In this document: positions 24,994 to 33,936 of the stretch, one piece after another
How positions within the stretch are numbered: position 1 is the first letter of the stretch
How the letters are laid out: every line of letters begins with the position of its first letter
NCBI GenBank assembly: GCA_027019265.1
Contig: JALUWX010000107.1
Coordinates: 49,881-113,880, forward strand
Reading direction: 5' to 3'
Length of the DNA: 64,000 bases
Origin: Phycisphaerales bacterium
GTDB lineage: Bacteria > Planctomycetota > Phycisphaerae > Phycisphaerales > UBA1924
Translations under genes and position numbers: made by a program
Notes under the pieces: generated by a model
Database searches by the model: none
Seen by the model: only the letters and a program-made list of their open reading frames with translations
What the model was told of the DNA's origin: nothing

Positions 24994-26184
24994 TCAATAC
25001 GCGTTCAGTTTGCGCAGCACACCCGGATCATGGGGATCCAGACGCGCGAGCAGTTCGGCGCTCCGCACACCCGCGCGTCCGTCCCCGTATGGATGATCGC
25101 TCGATCGGTCCGTGCGCGTGGTGATCGCATCGAGCGCTCGCGCGATCCCGTCGGGGTCGCATTCCGAGTGGATCGTCCAGAGCTCCGCACGCTCCCGTCC
25201 CCGTTGACGATCCCCGATATCCACGCTCGGACACTGGCACGCGCTCGCTTCGATCAGCCCGGCCGACGAGTTCCCGATCAATGCCCCCCCATTCGCCCCG
25301 ATCCGCTTGAGGAGCCCGACGAACCGATCGCGCGGGAGATGGTCTACGACTTTGATGTTGGACGGCGCGCTCATCAAGGCCCGCATGATCCCATCCCGAC
25401 CCGGGTCGAGGTTCGGGTGCAGCACGATCGCCGACGCATCCCCGATCGAGCGGAGGACGATCGACGCATCGTGCTCCTCGTGCTCGTCCGCGCGTCCTGT
25501 CGGGTGGATCAGGACCACATGCTTCGGGGAACCGAGCTCTTCGTAGGGCGCATCGCCCAGGGGCTCGATCGACCCGAGCGAATCGATCGCCGGGGACCCG
25601 ACGACGTGCACGCGCGACTCGTCCTCGCCCATCCGGATGATCCGATCCGCGCTCGATCGGGTCGCCGCAAGGTGCAGGTGCGCGAGCTTGGTGATCGCGT
25701 GGCGCATCGCGTCATCCGCGACCCCCTCCGCGCGATCCCCCCCGTGCATGTGCGCGAGCGCGAATCCCCCGACACTCGCCGCGATCGCCGCACCAAGCGC
25801 CTCGATCCGGTCCCCGAGCACGACGAGCCAGTCCGGGCGGAGCCGATCGAACGATCGCCCGAACCGCGCGATCCCCTTCCCGAGCGCTTCGACATCGTGG
25901 AGCCGACCGACCTTGCCCACGGTCTGCATGGGGATCGAGTCCGCGACCTCGAACTTGGCTTTGACTTCACGGAACGTCAGCGCGGGCTGGACCAGGTGCG
26001 ACCCGGCCGCGATGACGAGCAGACGGCAGTCCGAGCGGTCCTGGATCGCGCGCATCACGGGGGTCAGCAGCCCGAACTCCGCGCGCGTCCCTGTCACGAC
26101 CGCGATCGTGCGCGGGTGGTCCTTGTCCGGACGCGCATCGCGCCGGCGCATCTCGGATTCGTCCGTCCAGTGGTCCCCGATCAT
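24994..26184 (-). CDS. neuC: UDP-N-acetylglucosamine 2-epimerase (hydrolysing)
   Basis: A 396-residue GT-B fold enzyme that converts UDP-GlcNAc or a derivative to the 2-epimer and releases UDP, the first step in nonulosonic acid synthesis. It has IAVVTGTRAEFGLLTPVMRA (residues 27-46), VVLGDRIEALGAAIAA, ALAHMHGGDRAEGVADDAMR and GNSSAGLIEASACQCPSVDI, all typical of NeuC/NnaA/LegG. The ATG overlaps the neuB stop (ATGA, 26181-26184). It is the last gene of the operon. Whether the product leads to N-acetylneuraminate, legionaminate or a relative cannot be decided from these motifs. Confidence 0.92.
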   Translation of the reverse strand: MIGDHWTDESEMRRRDARPDKDHPRTIAVVTGTRAEFGLLTPVMRAIQDRSDCRLLVIAAGSHLVQPALTFREVKAKFEVADSIPMQTVGKVGRLHDVEALGKGIARFGRSFDRLRPDWLVVLGDRIEALGAAIAASVGGFALAHMHGGDRAEGVADDAMRHAITKLAHLHLAATRSSADRIIRMGEDESRVHVVGSPAIDSLGSIEPLGDAPYEELGSPKHVVLIHPTGRADEHEEHDASIVLRSIGDASAIVLHPNLDPGRDGIMRALMSAPSNIKVVDHLPRDRFVGLLKRIGANGGALIGNSSAGLIEASACQCPSVDIGDRQRGRERAELWTIHSECDPDGIARALDAITTRTDRSSDHPYGDGRAGVRSAELLARLDPHDPGVLRKLNAY

Positions 26185-27365
26185 GCGCGCTCCAGTGCCG
26201 CGATGTCGTCCTCGACGATCGGGACATCCCCGTCGATGTCGCGCTGCGCGATCGTCCCGACCACGTCTTCTATCCGGTAGGCAAGAATCCCCGTCCCCGG
26301 GCGCTTGATGGTCAGCATGTCGCGCGTGATCGTGGTGCCCTCAAGGATGGGCTGGGCCGCGACGACGGATTGGCGGGAGACTTCGCGGACATCGCGCTCG
26401 CAATCGAGGACTTCCTTGCGTATCGGCTCTGAAATTGCGACTTCATAGCCAATGAGATTGTCCAGTGCATGGAGTTGATCGAACAAATCGTCCGGTAGAT
26501 CGCCAAGATCTTCTATTTCCTCTGGTCCAGCTGCGCAGTACGGCGTATTGATCATGATCTCGAAAGATTTCCGTCCATCTGAAACCGCAAACCGAGCCCC
26601 ATCGCAATACGTTCTCAACTGAGAGTAGTGAAGCGAAGCTTTATGGTCTGGACCCTGACGCTTGCAGTCGTCGGTGAAGTGTTTTTCGAGGATTGACGCT
26701 CCGATACTCACAGCAGCAGCACCAGTCCCCATCTCCCGGGTGTGGTCGCTGTAACCCACAGGTATGCTCAAAGCATCCACCAGCACCTTAATCCCGCCAA
26801 GTGCATCCTCGGGCGCAGGATACGAACTCACACACTGCAACATCGCAAGACGATCTCGCGCCCCTTCGAGCCACCCCGCGGCCCGCACCACCTCGTCGAG
26901 TGTGCTCGCGCCCGTGCTCACGATCAGCGGCTTCCCCGTCCCCGCGATCGCATCGAGCAAAGGCTTGTTCACGATGTCCGGGCTCGCGCTCTTGTACGCA
27001 TCCCACCCGAGCGTCTCCGCGCGTTCCACCAGCTCCACACTGAACACCGTCACGATCGCATGGATCCCGCACTCGTGTGCACGATCCACAACCTTCGCCA
27101 TCTCGTCGAGGGTCAGCTCGAGCCGGCGCAGCATCTCGATCGGATCCGTCTCCCCGGCCGCCTTCTGGTACGCGGCCAGCTTCGCCGCCTTGCTCATCAA
27201 TCGGTCCGTCTCGAAGTACTGGAGCTTCACCGCGTCCGCGCCCGCATCCGCGGCCGCGTCGGTCAGCTCGAGCGCGCGCCCGACCTCCCCGTCGTGGTTC
27301 ACCCCGATCTCCGCGATCACATATGGCGGATGCTCGAGCCCGATCTCCGTGTCACCGATGCGCAT
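26181..27365 (-). CDS. neuB: N-acetylneuraminate/nonulosonate synthase with SAF domain
   Basis: A 394-residue synthase that condenses a 6-carbon amino sugar with phosphoenolpyruvate. The TIM barrel includes YVIAEIGVNHDG (residues 15-26), VKLQYFETDRL, YKSASPDI, LIVSTGAST and VGYSDHTREMG; the C-terminal antifreeze-like SAF domain begins near QPILEGTTITRDMLTI. ATG 27365 follows AAGGAGAG by 8 nt and lies inside the 3' end of neuA (14-nt overlap). Between about 26416 and 26850 the DNA has more A/T and a different codon choice than the flanks although the protein remains normal for NeuB (see findings). It works with neuA and neuC. Confidence 0.93.
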   Translation of the reverse strand: MRIGDTEIGLEHPPYVIAEIGVNHDGEVGRALELTDAAADAGADAVKLQYFETDRLMSKAAKLAAYQKAAGETDPIEMLRRLELTLDEMAKVVDRAHECGIHAIVTVFSVELVERAETLGWDAYKSASPDIVNKPLLDAIAGTGKPLIVSTGASTLDEVVRAAGWLEGARDRLAMLQCVSSYPAPEDALGGIKVLVDALSIPVGYSDHTREMGTGAAAVSIGASILEKHFTDDCKRQGPDHKASLHYSQLRTYCDGARFAVSDGRKSFEIMINTPYCAAGPEEIEDLGDLPDDLFDQLHALDNLIGYEVAISEPIRKEVLDCERDVREVSRQSVVAAQPILEGTTITRDMLTIKRPGTGILAYRIEDVVGTIAQRDIDGDVPIVEDDIAALERA

Positions 27366-28086
27366 GAACGAATCTCTCCTTGAGCAGCGTATCCGCGACA
27401 ACCAGATCGATCGGCGAATCGATGTCGATCACGTCCCCCTCGTTCGTCACGATCGCGCGACGATCATTCCCCAAAAACGCATGAGGCCCATCCGGCGCAC
27501 CGAGCGTGCACATCAGCGCCCCCGAGGTGACGGCCATCACCCCCCCGTCCGGGATCAGCGCGTCGGGCAGATCCTGACGACGGAAACAGTTGTGGAACAA
27601 CGGCGCCCCGTCCTCGAACGCACGGAGTGAGCCCCGCTCGTCGACCCGGCATGTCCACCATGGATGGTGCTTCCCGACTTTCGCGAACGATTGCACACTG
27701 TCGCACCCCGTGTCCTCGAGCATCGCGAGCGCGTCGTCGATCAGCGGCTCAGGACGGATGGGCACATTCGCATAGAGGATCACGATGGGCACATCGGGAG
27801 ACCCGATCGATCCGTACGCATGACGCGCGGCGCTGTCGATCGTCGCCGTGTCGTGCGCGAGCACGTCCGGGCGCTCGATGACCGTGCACCCCATATCCCG
27901 TGCGATCTCCGCGCATGGGGCATCGTCCGTCGACACGATCACGTGGTCCACCCGCGCCGAGCGCTGCGCCTGCTCGATCGTGTGCACAATGCAGGGTTTG
28001 CCGCCGACAATCGCGTGGTTCTTCCCGGGGACTCCCTTGGAGCCCGCGCGCGCCAGGATGATCGCGATCGCGCTGGGTTGGATCAC
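27352..28086 (-). CDS. neuA: Acylneuraminate cytidylyltransferase
   Basis: A 244-residue enzyme that activates a nonulosonic acid with CTP to the CMP-sugar used by a transferase. It has the nucleotide-binding start IAIILARAGSKGVPGKN (residues 7-23), VDHVIVSTDD, VIERPDVLAHDTATID and IDIDSPIDLVVAD, as in NeuA/PseF. It begins with GTG 28086, which overlaps the stop codon of the large upstream gene (GTGA, 28083-28086), and its end overlaps neuB by 14 nt. The tight packing argues for one transcript of four genes. The exact acid is not known. Confidence 0.93.
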   Translation of the reverse strand: MIQPSAIAIILARAGSKGVPGKNHAIVGGKPCIVHTIEQAQRSARVDHVIVSTDDAPCAEIARDMGCTVIERPDVLAHDTATIDSAARHAYGSIGSPDVPIVILYANVPIRPEPLIDDALAMLEDTGCDSVQSFAKVGKHHPWWTCRVDERGSLRAFEDGAPLFHNCFRRQDLPDALIPDGGVMAVTSGALMCTLGAPDGPHAFLGNDRRAIVTNEGDVIDIDSPIDLVVADTLLKERFVHAHR

Positions 28087-31000
28087 GCCGCCGCTCCGTC
28101 GTTCCCCGCGCCGACGAGCACCGATTCGCCCTTGAGCTCGACCAGCATCTCAGCACGATGATCACGCAGTGCGCGATGGGCCGCTTCGACCCCGTGCTCG
28201 AAGACGTTGACCGCATCGATCTCGATCCCACGATGATCGATCACCCCGCCGTCCGCGCGGACCCGGAGCACGTCCGCTTCCAGGATCTCCGCGCGTTTCC
28301 GCGGGATCGGGAGCGGCGAGATCCGCTCGCCTTCGACCACCCCCGGGAGCGGATCGATCGACGCGCACCCGCACACACTCAGCCAACGGTCGTAGAAGTC
28401 CCGGAGCTCGTGCACATTGATCGAGCACTTCGTCAGTCTCGGGAGGATCCACGGCGTCGGGAACGACCCGCTCACACGCTCCCGCGCGTTGAAGAGCGAC
28501 TGCATCCGGTCGAGCAGCTGCTCGTACCGGTCCGTCCCCGTCATCTGCTCGTACACGGCGCGCGAATCCGCGAGCACGTCCACACTCAGCACCCCAACCC
28601 CCGACTCGAGAATCGTCTGCGCGTCGTGGTGCTCCGAGAGCAGGTCCGTGCGGAGTTCGACACACGGCGCGCCCAGCTCATCCGCGAGCGCGACGAAGTC
28701 CAGCGCATCGGGGCGCATCAGCGGATCCCCGACCCCGGAGAACAGCACCGTGCAGTCCTCGCGCAGCTCGAGCGCTTCCTTCATCACATCCCGCGCCGAG
28801 GCGATCGTGATGTTCGGACGCTCATCGAGCTCCATCGCGCGATGGTGCACGCGCCCCCAGAACCCAGAGCTCAAACGCCCCGTGCACAGCTCGAGCACCA
28901 ATCGACCAGGGCCATGGCGCTGCGCCCGCGCGATCGCGCGTTCGTACTCGTCCACGATCTCGACCGCGCTCGTGCCGTGGACACGCTCACCGAGCGATTC
29001 GTACACCTCCGCGAACGCCCGTCTCCGAGCACCCGAATCCGCGATCATCCGCGCCGATCCATCACGAACCCTCGGATCCACCCCCACACACAGCGGCGAA
29101 GCGATCGGGTCGTTCTGCGGCCCCCTGGGCACATACGAGAGCAACGCGCCGATCGAACCGAACACGCTCGAACTCGCGCAGGCTTGCGCGAGCGTCACGA
29201 CCACATCTCGCGAGAGCACCACACACCCGAGCCCGGGGATCGCTTGCGAGAACGTGATCCGGCACTTCTCGGGCTCGCGCCGATGGAGCGACACGATCTC
29301 ATCCACGAGCGCCGGATCCACGAGCCCCCAGTCCGCGCCGACGATCGCGCCCGCATCGATCCCGTGCTCCTCCATCACCCGCGCCAGCTCGATCGGATCC
29401 AGCGACTCGTCGTAGCACCCCAACGAACCGATCGAACCACGCCACGTATCCGACGACGCGCTCCGCGCGATCCCGATCGCGCGTGTCCTCGACCGTGTCC
29501 GATCCGAATCGATGCTCACGATCCGAACACCCCCGCCGTGCTCCCCGAGAATCCGCGTGATCGCGTTGGCGTCCGGCGTGAGGATCGTGATCCCGTCGAT
29601 CTGCTCGCACCGCTTGAGCCGATCGATCGTGAGCACCAACGCGTTCATCCCCCGCGCCACGGGCTCGGACAGATCCCGGCGCTGACCGAGCCCACCAAGG
29701 ATCGGGTCCGCAACGACGACCGCGTCGATCCGACGACGCGCCTCGACCCGGACATCCGAACCCAGGAGCGCGTTCTCGTCCGCGAACTCGTCCCGCGTGA
29801 CTTTCACCGATCGATCGTCCATGACATCGATGAACCGTTCGACCAACGAGCGGACCGTGTCCGCGGCGTTCCGGATCCCCTCCACGTTCACCCCGTCGCG
29901 CTCCAGCTGACGGCGCTGCCGCTCGTACCGATCCAGGTCCGCCGCGAGCGCGATCCGCCGATCCGCGCGGAACCGCAGCATCGCGCCGCGCTGGTTCAGG
30001 AAGTGCACGAACGTCAGCGCGGGCTCCAGCTTCAACACCCGCTCCCTGATCGAATGGATCTTCGCGATGATCCTGTCCACCCGATCCGGATCCCCCGAAG
30101 CTTTGATCGCGCGTCCGATGAGTTCGTTCGTCGCTTTCGAGTGCTCCGCGACCTTGCGGAGATCCCCGACGATCTCGACAATCCGATCACGCACCCGATC
30201 CAGGTGCGCCGTGTCCTCGCGCCGTTCTCCGACCGTCTCGGGGATCCTCACGGAACCCATGCTCCCGAACTGTCCGATCGCTCCAGCGAGCGTCATGACC
30301 TCCGTGTGCTCGATCCGCGCGCCCCCCTCGCTCGCATCGATGATCCTCACCCCGTAGCGCGTGTCCTTCGCGAAGTCCGACTCGAACTGCGCAATGTACG
30401 CGCTCATCTGCTCGTCCGCATACATCTCGCGCCCGTGCACATCCGTGCGCGGTCTCAGGTGCGCCTTCATCCGGAGCACCCGCTCGAGTTCCATCATCTC
30501 CAGGGTCCGATGCTCCGAGAGCTCCCCGGACCATACGTTATGGATCGCCGCTCCCTCCCCGTAGTAGAGCCCATCGGAGAACCCGAGGTCCTGACCGATC
30601 ATGATGATCGTTCTGCACCCCAGGAACCGCGCGAGGTAGTAGTTCAGGTGCGCCACCGTCGAACCGGCCGGGAGCTTGGGCTTCTCACCCCCCAGCTCCG
30701 GACCCAGCAGCTTATCGAGCAAGGGCTCACCCACACACACGATCTCACCCGGGAACGCATCGAGGATCGCCGCGTTCGCTTTGGGTTCAGCGACGAGGCG
30801 CACCCCCTCGACGTCCTCCGGCGTCAGCCCCTCGTAGAACCGCTTCGAGATCTCGTGGTGATCGAGCGATGTCACAAAGTGAGGCCGGATCCCACGCTCG
30901 AGCAAGGGCTTGAGCATCGTCTGCACCGCGATAATCACGAACCGCTCGCGCACCGTGGGATCCTCGAGCAGCGCGAGGTTGTTCCGGAGCGAAGGCCCCG

Positions 31001-31724
31001 CCGCGATCAGGATCGCGGGCTTCCCTTTGCACGACCCCTCCAGCACCCCGAGCCCCGCGCTCATCGCGTAATGATCCGCGTTCATGATCACGTTGCGCAG
31101 CGTCACCCCCGAATGCGCGAGAACCGTGACCAGATGGGTGCGCGTGATCTTCACCGCGTCCAGAAACGTCTCCCCGAACACCTTCCCCGGCGCATCCAGA
31201 CGCGCCCGGCTCGGGGGATGGATCACCAGCTCCACCCCCGTCGCGAGGAGCACCTCGAGCTTCTCGAACCCGTCCGTGATCGTCCCCCGATCGCGCGGGT
31301 CCGTCACCAACGTGAACTTGCCCTTGCTGATCCACCCCGAATGATCCACCCGTTCGAGCACGGCCCGGAGCATCCCGACATCGGGCTCGAAACACACCAC
31401 CGCGCTCTGCTCGAGGTGCGCCTCCTGGAGCTCACGGATGTGGTACCCGAGCCCGAACCCCACCACCCCGTACATCCCCGCGTTGTTGGGATCGAGCGAC
31501 GAAACCCACGATCGCGCCTCGTCGATCGGCCGACGTTTCGAACACAGCGCCCGCCCCTGGAACACCGCGCTCGGGAACCCCTCGTCCTGGGTCTCGACGA
31601 ACTCGATCGACATCGAAGCAACCGCGTTCCGGATCGCTTCCGCGCTCCTCGGAGCCCGCTTCGCGATCGCGCGCAGGTTCCGCTCCAGGATGGAATCGTC
31701 GCGCATCGTCGTCGTTGTGCTCAT
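28083..31724 (-). CDS. Maf-type flagellin-glycosyltransferase-like protein fused to a nucleotidyltransferase-like and a degenerate radical SAM-like domain
   Basis: A 1213-residue protein. Residues about 225-490 match the motility-associated factor (Maf, MAF_flag10/DUF115) domain: KGKPAILIAAGPSLRNNLAL, LKPLLERGIRPHFVTSLD and GCRTIIMIGQDLGFSDGLYY. Maf proteins of other bacteria attach pseudaminic or legionaminic acid to flagellin. Residues about 665-870 resemble an SpsF-like nucleotidyltransferase. Residues about 935-1165 resemble a radical SAM/SPASM protein (VLFSGVGDPLMRPD; PWILPRLTKC) but the CxxxCxxC cluster motif is absent. ATG 31724 follows AGGAG by 5 nt. It heads the operon with neuA, neuB and neuC. 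The Maf call is firm; the other two domains are tentative. Confidence 0.8.
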   Translation of the reverse strand: MSTTTTMRDDSILERNLRAIAKRAPRSAEAIRNAVASMSIEFVETQDEGFPSAVFQGRALCSKRRPIDEARSWVSSLDPNNAGMYGVVGFGLGYHIRELQEAHLEQSAVVCFEPDVGMLRAVLERVDHSGWISKGKFTLVTDPRDRGTITDGFEKLEVLLATGVELVIHPPSRARLDAPGKVFGETFLDAVKITRTHLVTVLAHSGVTLRNVIMNADHYAMSAGLGVLEGSCKGKPAILIAAGPSLRNNLALLEDPTVRERFVIIAVQTMLKPLLERGIRPHFVTSLDHHEISKRFYEGLTPEDVEGVRLVAEPKANAAILDAFPGEIVCVGEPLLDKLLGPELGGEKPKLPAGSTVAHLNYYLARFLGCRTIIMIGQDLGFSDGLYYGEGAAIHNVWSGELSEHRTLEMMELERVLRMKAHLRPRTDVHGREMYADEQMSAYIAQFESDFAKDTRYGVRIIDASEGGARIEHTEVMTLAGAIGQFGSMGSVRIPETVGERREDTAHLDRVRDRIVEIVGDLRKVAEHSKATNELIGRAIKASGDPDRVDRIIAKIHSIRERVLKLEPALTFVHFLNQRGAMLRFRADRRIALAADLDRYERQRRQLERDGVNVEGIRNAADTVRSLVERFIDVMDDRSVKVTRDEFADENALLGSDVRVEARRRIDAVVVADPILGGLGQRRDLSEPVARGMNALVLTIDRLKRCEQIDGITILTPDANAITRILGEHGGGVRIVSIDSDRTRSRTRAIGIARSASSDTWRGSIGSLGCYDESLDPIELARVMEEHGIDAGAIVGADWGLVDPALVDEIVSLHRREPEKCRITFSQAIPGLGCVVLSRDVVVTLAQACASSSVFGSIGALLSYVPRGPQNDPIASPLCVGVDPRVRDGSARMIADSGARRRAFAEVYESLGERVHGTSAVEIVDEYERAIARAQRHGPGRLVLELCTGRLSSGFWGRVHHRAMELDERPNITIASARDVMKEALELREDCTVLFSGVGDPLMRPDALDFVALADELGAPCVELRTDLLSEHHDAQTILESGVGVLSVDVLADSRAVYEQMTGTDRYEQLLDRMQSLFNARERVSGSFPTPWILPRLTKCSINVHELRDFYDRWLSVCGCASIDPLPGVVEGERISPLPIPRKRAEILEADVLRVRADGGVIDHRGIEIDAVNVFEHGVEAAHRALRDHRAEMLVELKGESVLVGAGNDGAAA

Positions 31725-31851
31725 GGAGTCTCCTATCGCATAGTCCATCGTGTGTTATCGACCGGATCCTCGACGTTTCTCCATTCACAGCACCCCCGGG
31801 ATCCGAGCCCCACACGGAGCCGAACATGCTCCCAGACAAGGGACACCGATC

Positions 31852-32472
31852 ATGCAGAACGCCATCTTCGAACCATCGAACCTTCCCACACTCGACCCCC
31901 CGAACCCCATCACCCACGCGCTCCTCGAATCCCCCACGATCCCGGCCATCGGCGCGATCGTCCTCGGGACCGTCCTCCTCCTCGCGCTCCGCTCCCGAGG
32001 ACAGACCAAACCAGCCGTCGCCGTCTTCCTCGGGGGATTGCTCCTCGGGATCGGGGTGTTCACCAGCGCCGCGCTCGTCACGACGGATCGGGAACACCTC
32101 ACCGAATCGACAGCCCAACTCGTCAACGCCGCCGCCGCCGGGGACTCGACAACCCTCACCACCCTCCTCCACCCCGATGTCCGGGTCCGAGCGCGCTTCG
32201 CCTCCCCGAGCTCGCGCGACGACATCATCGCGCTGTGCCAGACCCGAGCGGCGCGGATCGTCGAAGAGATCATCGTCCGAGAGACCCAAGCCCAGGTCAT
32301 GGGAGAACGGACCGCCCGGACGATGGTCAAAGTCCGGGTCCACACGGGGATGGGTCAGAACATCAGCTGGTGGATGATCGACTGGGAACGCGCCACCCCG
32401 GACTCGGACGAATGGCGCGCCACGCGCATCGAGCCAGTCTGGATCCAGGGCTACGACAACCCCGCCGGCTGA
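31852..32472 (+). CDS. Membrane-anchored protein with SnoaL/NTF2-like domain
   Basis: A 206-residue protein of unknown function. Two membrane helices lie at about residues 28-46 (IPAIGAIVLGTVLLLAL) and 54-74 (AVAVFLGGLLLGIGVFTSAA). The rest resembles a small NTF2/SnoaL-like cone: ESTAQLVNAAAAGDSTTLTT and LLHPDVRVRARF are typical of the start of such domains, and WWMIDWER of a later strand. ATG 31852 follows AAGGGAC by 8 nt. It diverges from the Maf-type gene, with 127 nt between, and converges with a lipoprotein gene. No catalytic residues can be named. Confidence 0.72.
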   Translation: MQNAIFEPSNLPTLDPPNPITHALLESPTIPAIGAIVLGTVLLLALRSRGQTKPAVAVFLGGLLLGIGVFTSAALVTTDREHLTESTAQLVNAAAAGDSTTLTTLLHPDVRVRARFASPSSRDDIIALCQTRAARIVEEIIVRETQAQVMGERTARTMVKVRVHTGMGQNISWWMIDWERATPDSDEWRATRIEPVWIQGYDNPAG

Positions 32473-32493
32473 TCACAAACCGTTGTTCGATCA

Positions 32494-33321
32494 TCACTTC
32501 GGGATCGCGACCAGGTTGCTGGGCTGGAGGCGCGTCACGCGCTGACCCGCGCTGTTCGTGATCGTTTCCCGGATCCCCTTCCCGTTGAGCAGGTTGTTCG
32601 GGAACTTCCGCCGGGTATCGCGCAAGCGCTGGGACTCGATCGGAGGGGTCGTGGTCGCATCGAAGTCGGACTCCCCGAACACACCCACCGTCACCATCGA
32701 TCGGTACGGCGCGTGGTAATAGAACGCTTGGTCTCCCTCGGCGCGCAGCTCACGGACGGCCGCCTCCGCAGCACGCCGGAACTCACGGAGCTGAGGGTCC
32801 CCCGGGACCGACCCATCGTCCGTCCCGTACACCCCGGCCTGCAACGTATAGACCGCCCAGTCTCCCACGCGCGATTTCACCGTGCGCAGGTCGTATTCGT
32901 CGTTCGTCCCGGACAACGCCGCACCGCTCGGGGGCGCAAGATATGCGCCGAGATACGGGCGGGACCCGTCCACCACCGTCTCCTTGATCCGATCCAGATC
33001 CAGAAGCGCCGCTTTGTCGTCGGGCCCGTCGTACCCCCCGTACGCGATCACAAAGTGACCCGCGCGCGTCGTCGCGTACGCGCCCTCCAACCCCGGCGTG
33101 GTCCGGACCCGCTGGAGGATCGGGTTCACAAGCTCCTCCCGATCCCTGGGCAACGTCGTCAGGATGATCGACCACCCGTCCTTGTTCCCCGGCGCAAGCC
33201 CATCGTCATCGAACACCCCCTCCGATTGGAGCGGGGCGCTCTCCTTGGGTTCATCCTTCGATTGTCCCCACCCACATCCGGGGAGAACAAGCGCCCCCAA
33301 CACGAGGAGGAGCAGACCCAT
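32494..33321 (-). CDS. Lipoprotein of unknown function
   Basis: A 275-residue exported lipoprotein if translation starts at ATG 33321: a hydrophobic stretch LLLLVLGALVLPGC with a lipobox (LPGC) at residues 13-16. A start at ATG 33414, preceded by AAGGGG, would add 31 residues including the basic segment that signal peptides need, so that start is a real alternative. The mature part has SIILTTLPRDREELVNPIL, HFVIAYGGYDGPDDKAALLD and GVYGTDDG, and appears as a repeated mixed alpha/beta (SPOR-like) arrangement, without a named family. Convergent with the preceding gene, 21 nt apart; divergent from flgM. Confidence 0.72.
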   Translation of the reverse strand: MGLLLLVLGALVLPGCGWGQSKDEPKESAPLQSEGVFDDDGLAPGNKDGWSIILTTLPRDREELVNPILQRVRTTPGLEGAYATTRAGHFVIAYGGYDGPDDKAALLDLDRIKETVVDGSRPYLGAYLAPPSGAALSGTNDEYDLRTVKSRVGDWAVYTLQAGVYGTDDGSVPGDPQLREFRRAAEAAVRELRAEGDQAFYYHAPYRSMVTVGVFGESDFDATTTPPIESQRLRDTRRKFPNNLLNGKGIRETITNSAGQRVTRLQPSNLVAIPK

Positions 33322-33627
33322 CCGACCCCCCCGAGCGGGGGCGCAACAACCGAACAAATGAAAAACCCGCTTGGGGTGGGCAGTTCTGGCGTGATTTTGG
33401 AATCGGGTCAACATTTTTCGTTCGTCCCCTTCAGGGTTATACTCTGTAAGTCTTTGATTTGGCGGATGTTCGCACACTTCAGCCAAATTCATTCATTTGT
33501 GTTGAGCCGTTCTGATCGGCGACGATACACACACACCGGGATGGTGGAATAGGAACCGGATACTACAACATGTCGTAGTGCCCCCAGTGGTGGAACAAAG
33601 GTGGGCACAAGAAGGAGGCCATCCAGC
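33322..33627. promoter_or_regulatory. Divergent region between lipoprotein gene and flgM
   Basis: A 306-nt stretch without a supported gene, richer in A/T than its surroundings. TATACT at 33438-33443 could be a plus-strand -10 element; on the opposite strand the same place reads TATAAC. No convincing -35 sequence accompanies either. AAGGAGG just before 33618 is the flgM ribosome binding site. I see no clear sigma-28 or sigma-54 promoter. Confidence 0.35.
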
Positions 33628-33936
33628 ATGCAACACTTTTCCCCGATCGACGCACCGCGCACCACTCGTCCAGGACGGATCCGTCCTGTCGAAGTCGCGC
33701 CGAGCGAAGCGCCCCAAGAGGCGTCCCGTGGCGCCGTCAGCAGCCGTGGATCCGATCGAGTCGAACTCTCCAGCGTCGCTCGTTTCCTCAACGAGCTCAA
33801 GAGCGGCGGCGCTGAGCGCACCGACCTGATCAACAAGGTCCGCGCCGAAATCGAAGCCGGCACGTACGACACGGACGCCAAGTTCGACGCCGCCATCGAC
33901 GCCATCAAGGAAGACCTTGAACTCGAACTCGACTGA
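33628..33936 (+). CDS. flgM: FlgM-like anti-sigma-28 factor
   Basis: A 102-residue protein with a disordered, Arg/Pro-rich N-terminal half and a C-terminal half that matches FlgM: DRVELSSVARFLNELKSG, then DLINKVRAEIEAGTYDTDAK, FDAAIDAIKEDLELEL. FlgM holds the flagellar sigma factor FliA until the hook-basal body is complete and is then exported. ATG 33628 follows AAGGAGG by 9 nt. It is a single-gene transcript with its own strong terminator. No other flagellar structural gene is in the window, but the Maf-neuABC operon 2 kb away may glycosylate flagellin. Confidence 0.82.
   Translation: MQHFSPIDAPRTTRPGRIRPVEVAPSEAPQEASRGAVSSRGSDRVELSSVARFLNELKSGGAERTDLINKVRAEIEAGTYDTDAKFDAAIDAIKEDLELELD

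Follow-up and report, generated by a model that had tools for sequence, protein, structure and literature searches.

A Maf variant of Phycisphaerales whose fused or adjoining partner is formally neither a radical SAM enzyme nor a spiro-SPASM member

Background

Known Maf proteins place nonulosonic acids on flagellin, and the sections of PMC11339370 drawn on here know of no sequon for them. The sole publicly solved Maf has, as those sections describe it, a sialyltransferase-like core and outer domains whose roles are unclear (PMC11339370). Flagellin glycosylation by Maf precedes export, according to the title of PMC4065374. The auxiliary cluster of the radical SAM enzyme BtrN is bound by four cysteines, as stated in the cited parts of PMC6231123 and PMC9012708. 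In the open-licence literature no paper was found on the architecture described below or on the named family spiro-SPASM.

The fused gene and its neighbors

"The window" denotes the whole stretch of DNA that was analysed, 64,000 nucleotides of contig JALUWX010000107.1 from a Phycisphaerales bacterium (assembly GCA_027019265.1). A sequence-only reading had placed an open reading frame at 28083..31724, without naming a strand; the frame was confirmed on the minus strand and encodes 1213 amino acids. It begins with ATG at 31724, and a ribosome-binding-like GGAG lies 5-8 bases 5' of the start. A plus-strand frame (28158-32561) that runs opposite to it is presumably a shadow of the GC-rich coding sequence. 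The features of the locus are as follows.

28083..31724, minus: fused gene, Maf + cytidylyltransferase-like + radical-SAM-like, 1213 residues plus stop (ORF and translation)
29787..31724, minus: Maf part, residues 1-646, with all three Maf domains
29745..29786, minus: linker, predicted to be flexible (pLDDT <50), residues 647-660
28929..29738, minus: cytidylyltransferase-like part, residues 663-932
28275..28928, minus: radical-SAM-like barrel, residues 933-1150
28851..28889, minus: loop at the place expected for CxxxCxxC, residues 946-958, one Cys remaining (alignment, including the BtrN and PqqE loop)
28125..28274, minus: remnant of the twitch (auxiliary-cluster) region, residues 1151-1200, without the four-Cys pattern
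27352..28086, minus: neuA-like CMP-sugar synthetase gene (PF02348, E 6e-19)
26181..27365, minus: neuB with SAF domain, its ATG at 27365 inside the neuA end (PF03102, E 3e-62)
24994..26184, minus: neuC, UDP-GlcNAc 2-epimerase, the frame overlapping the neuB end (TIGR03568, PF02350)
about 33601..33936, plus: FlgM-like anti-sigma-28 factor, 1.9 kb from the fused gene (PF04316, E 4e-7)

The TGA of the fused gene and the GTG of neuA overlap in the bases GTGA, and neuB and neuC follow, so that the coupling and gene order claimed earlier were borne out by the sequence and by Pfam and NCBIfam matches; the flgM gene that had been placed 2 kb away was likewise found, on the plus strand. NeuC passes TIGR03568 (276.2 bits, cut-off 235.9). 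NeuB stays below the NeuB model TIGR03569 (292 versus 399.65 bits), and the PseF model TIGR03584 is below its cut-off (82 versus 205.7 bits); the broader models PF03102 and PF02348 are passed. Matches in the same genome to TIGR04181, which we take to be the model of LegC-type aminotransferases, all fall under its cut-off. About 2 kb past neuC, two adjacent genes encode proteins that carry TPR and sulfotransferase domains (PF13469; 20000-23097, plus strand).

Domains of the fused protein

The Maf core matches PF01973 at residues 211-384 (E 5.6e-33; 114.6 bits, cut-off 34.6), which secures the Maf/DUF115 assignment of the sequence-only reading, and the predicted structure of the fused protein contains the three-domain Maf fold. 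The Maf N-terminal domain PF20157 is under its cut-off in the window protein (15.5 versus 23.5 bits) and is labeled on only five of about 109 homologues (P0009, P0013, P0015, P0017, P0079). Formal membership in PseD (NF050051) was ruled out by the score cut-off (52.2 versus 670 bits). The Maf part is likely to be an active enzyme that transfers nonulosonic acid to flagellin.

The partner proved to have more to it than the earlier reading had described: it also occurs as a separate gene (the "split partner" below), this form shares four auxiliary-cluster cysteines, and it is related to BtrN and to spiro-SPASM. Structure predictions, built once with 65 of the 109 homologues plus others and once with 92 of the 109, were combined with a fold search. 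Residues ~663-942 (28899-29738, minus strand), which had been called an SpsF-like nucleotidyltransferase-like region, are predicted to fold like a cytidylyltransferase, and the match to the CMP-sugar synthetase fold spans most of the domain. From residue ~933 onward the prediction is a radical-SAM/twitch-enzyme fold. By these predictions the region past residue ~650 is neither a single unrelated domain nor without a radical SAM fold at its C-terminal end, the two outcomes that would have refuted the sequence-only reading. Among the fold matches listed, the best was 6oew, a cytidylyltransferase from Leptospira whose alignment extends beyond that of ordinary CMP-sugar synthetases; 6oew may belong to a relative of this partner in spirochaetes. 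Over the first domain, the split-partner profile matches IspD (E 6e-4).

The neighboring NeuA family conserves R13, G15, S16, G18 and K22 in its P-loop. In a profile alignment with the split partners (probability 91%), an acidic residue stands opposite the Arg, the Gly-Ser is altered, the Gly is kept, and the Lys is Lys or Arg; this comparison used the split-partner profile, and the window's own stretch was judged by eye. Among 93 fused rows, with domain limits that we set, conservation of at least 90% was found at 147/627 Maf positions, 37/253 cytidylyltransferase positions (including D798, W799 and D803), 29/221 barrel positions and 2/51 twitch positions. The Asp-Trp and Asp-Pro of the fused form presumably resemble the cytidylyltransferase metal site; in the alignment, the Asp of the DW motif is missing in many class members too. 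The conserved barrel residues (GxGDPL, R1025, D1049, W1092, R1096, D1124) sit within predicted strands or at their tips and look like a ligand pocket under selection.

The C-terminal half of the window protein shows radical SAM features and no CxxxCxxC, just as had been noticed at the outset. The motif is absent at the radical-SAM site from all 294 homologues checked, and an active radical SAM enzyme was rejected on this ground. These comprise 109 found with the window protein and two sets of split partners (120 and 65). Of the 109, 107 carry the PF01973 label, the shorter P0007 and P0025 lacking it; the 120 are those listed of 199 matches. P0296, an ordinary radical-SAM enzyme, was left out of the count. 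Four regular-expression matches to CxxxCxxC all lie in the C-terminal twitch, within the last ~15 residues. The barrel loop aligns with the BtrN and PqqE loops, minus their cysteines.

Four cysteines are invariant in 20 diverse split partners (504, 522, 567 and 570 in the numbering of the first row). The profile of these 20 rows matches BtrN (4m7t, E 3e-13), the four-Cys block aligning gap-free, and matches PqqE over the barrel (E 5e-5). The C-terminal four-Cys pattern was found in 96/120 and 64/65 split proteins versus 0/109 of the fused-set matches. From these alignments, the split partner likely keeps one BtrN-type auxiliary iron-sulfur cluster, the cysteines for which are gone from the fused lineage. 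Split L035 and L037 also align without the four-Cys pattern, so the loss would have occurred more than once if the phylogeny described below holds. Since CxxxCxxC is absent from fused and split forms alike, its loss most simply predates the fusion.

Split partners and the spiro-SPASM relation

Five split partners were tested, and all match spiro-SPASM (TIGR04321) with E-values from 4e-12 to 1e-38; three of them score above cut-off for SPASM (PF13186) and one for PF04055. The window protein reaches 31.5 bits against the TIGR04321 cut-off of 250 bits, and no genome of the 120 sampled from the class exceeds it, which rules out formal membership in spiro-SPASM. The architecture is thus a Maf variant whose partner is formally neither a radical SAM enzyme nor a spiro-SPASM member. 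Forty-four class genomes with spiro-SPASM matches, hand-picked for E-values of ~1e-14 or better and frames of ~450 residues or more, all have Maf as well; G095, G114, G125 and G152, with similar E-values and shorter frames, were left out of this set. No spirochaete member was recognised among the matches of the protein searches or the genome scan. A plasmid search matched records that include Brachyspira, with no match spanning 80% of the query; the ten rows listed cover 44-50%, corresponding to the radical-SAM half, and the annotated ones are mostly named radical SAM proteins. The one split partner searched against PHROGs gave no match.

When six diverse partners were used to scan named genome contigs, 86 loci came up, of which 80 were retained. 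Their titles are planctomycete except for L125 (Alphaproteobacteria), L145 (Terriglobia) and L150 (bacterium). Maf lies directly upstream of the separate partner on the same strand in 74/80, its match ending anywhere from 96 bases within the partner match to 417 bases short of it. The misses are L074, L119, L135, L145, L147 and L148, with L135 scored as a miss for want of upstream sequence. A tRNA synthetase lies upstream in L148 and a transposase in L145, and nothing was recognised there in L119 and L147. L074 (4909-7650, plus strand) holds a partner without Maf, and its upstream frame is a radical SAM protein above the Pfam cut-off. In a sample from the class, some of whose genomes also contribute to the 80 named loci, Maf was upstream in 19/20 loci. 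Outside the class it was adjacent or fused in only 8 of 13 loci that hold most of the partner. These 13 are from 15 hand-chosen from the 53 genomes with a match; L185 and L186 were excluded, as they match the barrel half only and carry CxxxCxxC. Because the separate partner gene usually adjoins the Maf gene, the two halves likely work as one machine. Two further loci were seen in these scans. L125 (JANQQE010000011.1) holds a Maf-partner pair in a record whose title, Alphaproteobacteria, is probably wrong, and in L179 (2816-7922, minus strand; G196) the partner gene is flanked by two Maf frames.

Among the fused loci listed, neuA is immediately downstream of the fused gene in 19/21; a NeuB cluster, identified by eye, accompanies 34/120 loci inspected, and few of the 80 named loci have neuA right behind the separate partner. 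The window's neu operon is therefore one arrangement among several.

Spread and history of the fusion

Matches to the fused protein were found in 57/61 genomes of the order, its own included, and the architecture is therefore not a matter of chance. By ORF layout, 47 of the 57 carry one fused ORF and 10 (from two families) carry two separate ORFs. Within the 47, G003, G007 and G011 are cut by contig ends, seven were called from frame lengths alone, and G042 and G054 have a reduced Maf. In 9 of the 10 split genomes Maf directly precedes the partner, the exception being G041, where the two are on different contigs. G025, G048, G050 and G058 gave no match to the fused protein; flagellin is present in G025 but in none of the other three.

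A quick phylogeny of 70 partner halves places 40 fused and 30 split forms on either side of one branch (SH-aLRT 98), a topology consistent with a single fusion in this lineage, the root and direction being unproven. A fusion also exists in another class: L173 (4604-8125, minus strand; G339) joins Maf to a partner with its twitch cysteines intact, and G339 also carries a split pair, L174.

Co-occurrence with flagellin and NeuB

Among the 120 class genomes, PF01973 was found in 59, flagellin in 87 and both in 58 (Fisher p 4e-11, kinship ignored); flagellin is thus present in 58/59 genomes with Maf versus 29/61 without. Strong NeuB matches, defined by a best E-value <1e-25, occur in 58/59 Maf genomes versus 13/61 others (p 3e-20, kinship ignored), and the weaker matches are presumably DAHP-type synthases. 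Flagellin open frames are longer in the presence of Maf, with medians of 499 (57 genomes) and 404 (26 genomes), one frame being measured per genome in 57/58 genomes with Maf and 26/29 without. The genome of the window has five flagellin matches.

The co-occurrence across 120 genomes favors flagellin as the target, as the sequence-only reading had argued from flgM, and G042, G054 and G025 are exceptions to it. In G042 and G054 the fusion is shortened and its Maf core has diverged (L039, 5086-8298, plus strand, and L040, 5038-7542, minus strand, respectively). Neither genome has a flagellin match, and the two loci revealed no neu gene; G042 also lacks a NeuB match. These fusions are either on the way out or directed at another target.

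Discussion

We propose that the fused protein is a Maf fold carrying a non-catalytic loading module, the C-terminal half, that brings CMP-sugar and flagellin to the Maf site, a model to which we give an even chance. It joins what was observed in the sequences (the missing CxxxCxxC, the neighborhood, the fusion in a second class and the neu operon) to folds that are predicted. NeuC, NeuB and NeuA would make the CMP-sugar donor, and Maf would move the nonulosonic acid, a sialic-acid-like sugar, from it to flagellin. The cytidylyltransferase fold would handle the donor, a role assigned to it because a synthetase fold suits CMP-sugar. The barrel would handle the acceptor chain of flagellin, since several twitch-type relatives (SuiB, PqqE, SkfB, anSME) act on peptides. 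The C-terminal half would in this way serve binding rather than catalysis.

The C-terminal half might instead have remained catalytic: as a diverged cytidylyltransferase it would produce or complete a CMP-sugar beside Maf, with the barrel as scaffold. The breadth of the synthetase fold match, the 37/253 conserved positions with the metal-site-like D798, W799 and D803, and the Lys or Arg at the place of the NeuA P-loop Lys agree with such an activity; but the P-loop Arg faces an acidic residue, the Gly-Ser is changed, the Asp of the DW motif is also gone in many class members, and an ordinary NeuA-like gene comes directly after, so that we hold this unlikely. Catalysis by the barrel is extremely improbable: CxxxCxxC is missing at the site in 294/294 and the loop aligned with BtrN and PqqE has no cysteines, even though the fold and the GxGDP loop are retained and the split partners probably still carry one auxiliary cluster. 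At the other extreme, the C-terminal half could be a decaying passenger and the fusion functionally meaningless. The weakly conserved twitch remnant would fit decay, as would the last part being missing or unmatched in several fused members (for example L043, 1108 residues). Retention of the neighborhood in 74/80 loci, the fusion in a second class, the conserved barrel positions and a confident joint structure model nonetheless make this highly unlikely.

A different question is whether flagellin is the target, or the only one, rather than some other surface or exported protein. G042 and G054 keep shortened fusions without a flagellin match, 29/61 genomes without Maf nevertheless have flagellin, and the conserved neighbors of the split pair, judged by eye, are non-flagellar. 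Against this stand the presence of flagellin in 58/59 Maf genomes, with longer frames than in genomes without Maf, FlgM at 1.9 kb, and the action of known Mafs on flagellin as given in the cited sections of PMC11339370. We consider another target distinctly improbable.

Extended beyond the window, the loading-module model would have the Maf systems of many Phycisphaerae and some other planctomycete classes using a constant double-pseudoenzyme subunit, in which loss of the SAM cluster preceded that of the auxiliary cluster, and whose dead barrel holds flagellin; we advance this tentatively, at somewhat less than an even chance. If it is true, a radical-SAM barrel was retained after its chemistry was lost, with the steps of loss visible in living relatives. 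How Maf recognizes flagellin is described as unresolved in those sections of PMC11339370, and a Maf-adjacent partner that is fused in two classes is a candidate for donor or acceptor handling. The relation also provides a functional lead for the named family spiro-SPASM; if spirochaete spiro-SPASM proteins adjoin Maf as well, periplasmic flagella would depend on this kind of machine too.

Comparison with described systems

The window protein shares, by predicted fold, the three domains of Maf flagellin glycosyltransferases (PF01973; Magnetospirillum Maf 5mu5; Campylobacter, Aeromonas, Clostridium), and like them has nonulosonate genes alongside and flagellin in the genome; it differs in an additional second half of ~550 residues, or a separate neighboring gene for it. 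The first domain of that half is alike in predicted fold, over most of its length, to CMP-sugar synthetases (KdsB, NeuA, PseF) and 6oew, but the P-loop Arg and Gly-Ser are replaced and an ordinary NeuA-like gene adjoins. With twitch/SPASM radical-SAM enzymes (BtrN, MoaA, PqqE, SuiB, anSME) the partner has the predicted barrel and twitch fold in common, and its split form also the four auxiliary-cluster cysteines, whereas CxxxCxxC is absent here and the fused form lacks the auxiliary-cluster pattern too. In profile, split partners resemble spiro-SPASM (TIGR04321) over barrel and twitch with E-values down to 2e-46, and some homologues carry its name in their source records, while the window protein and 120/120 class genomes score below the family cut-off.
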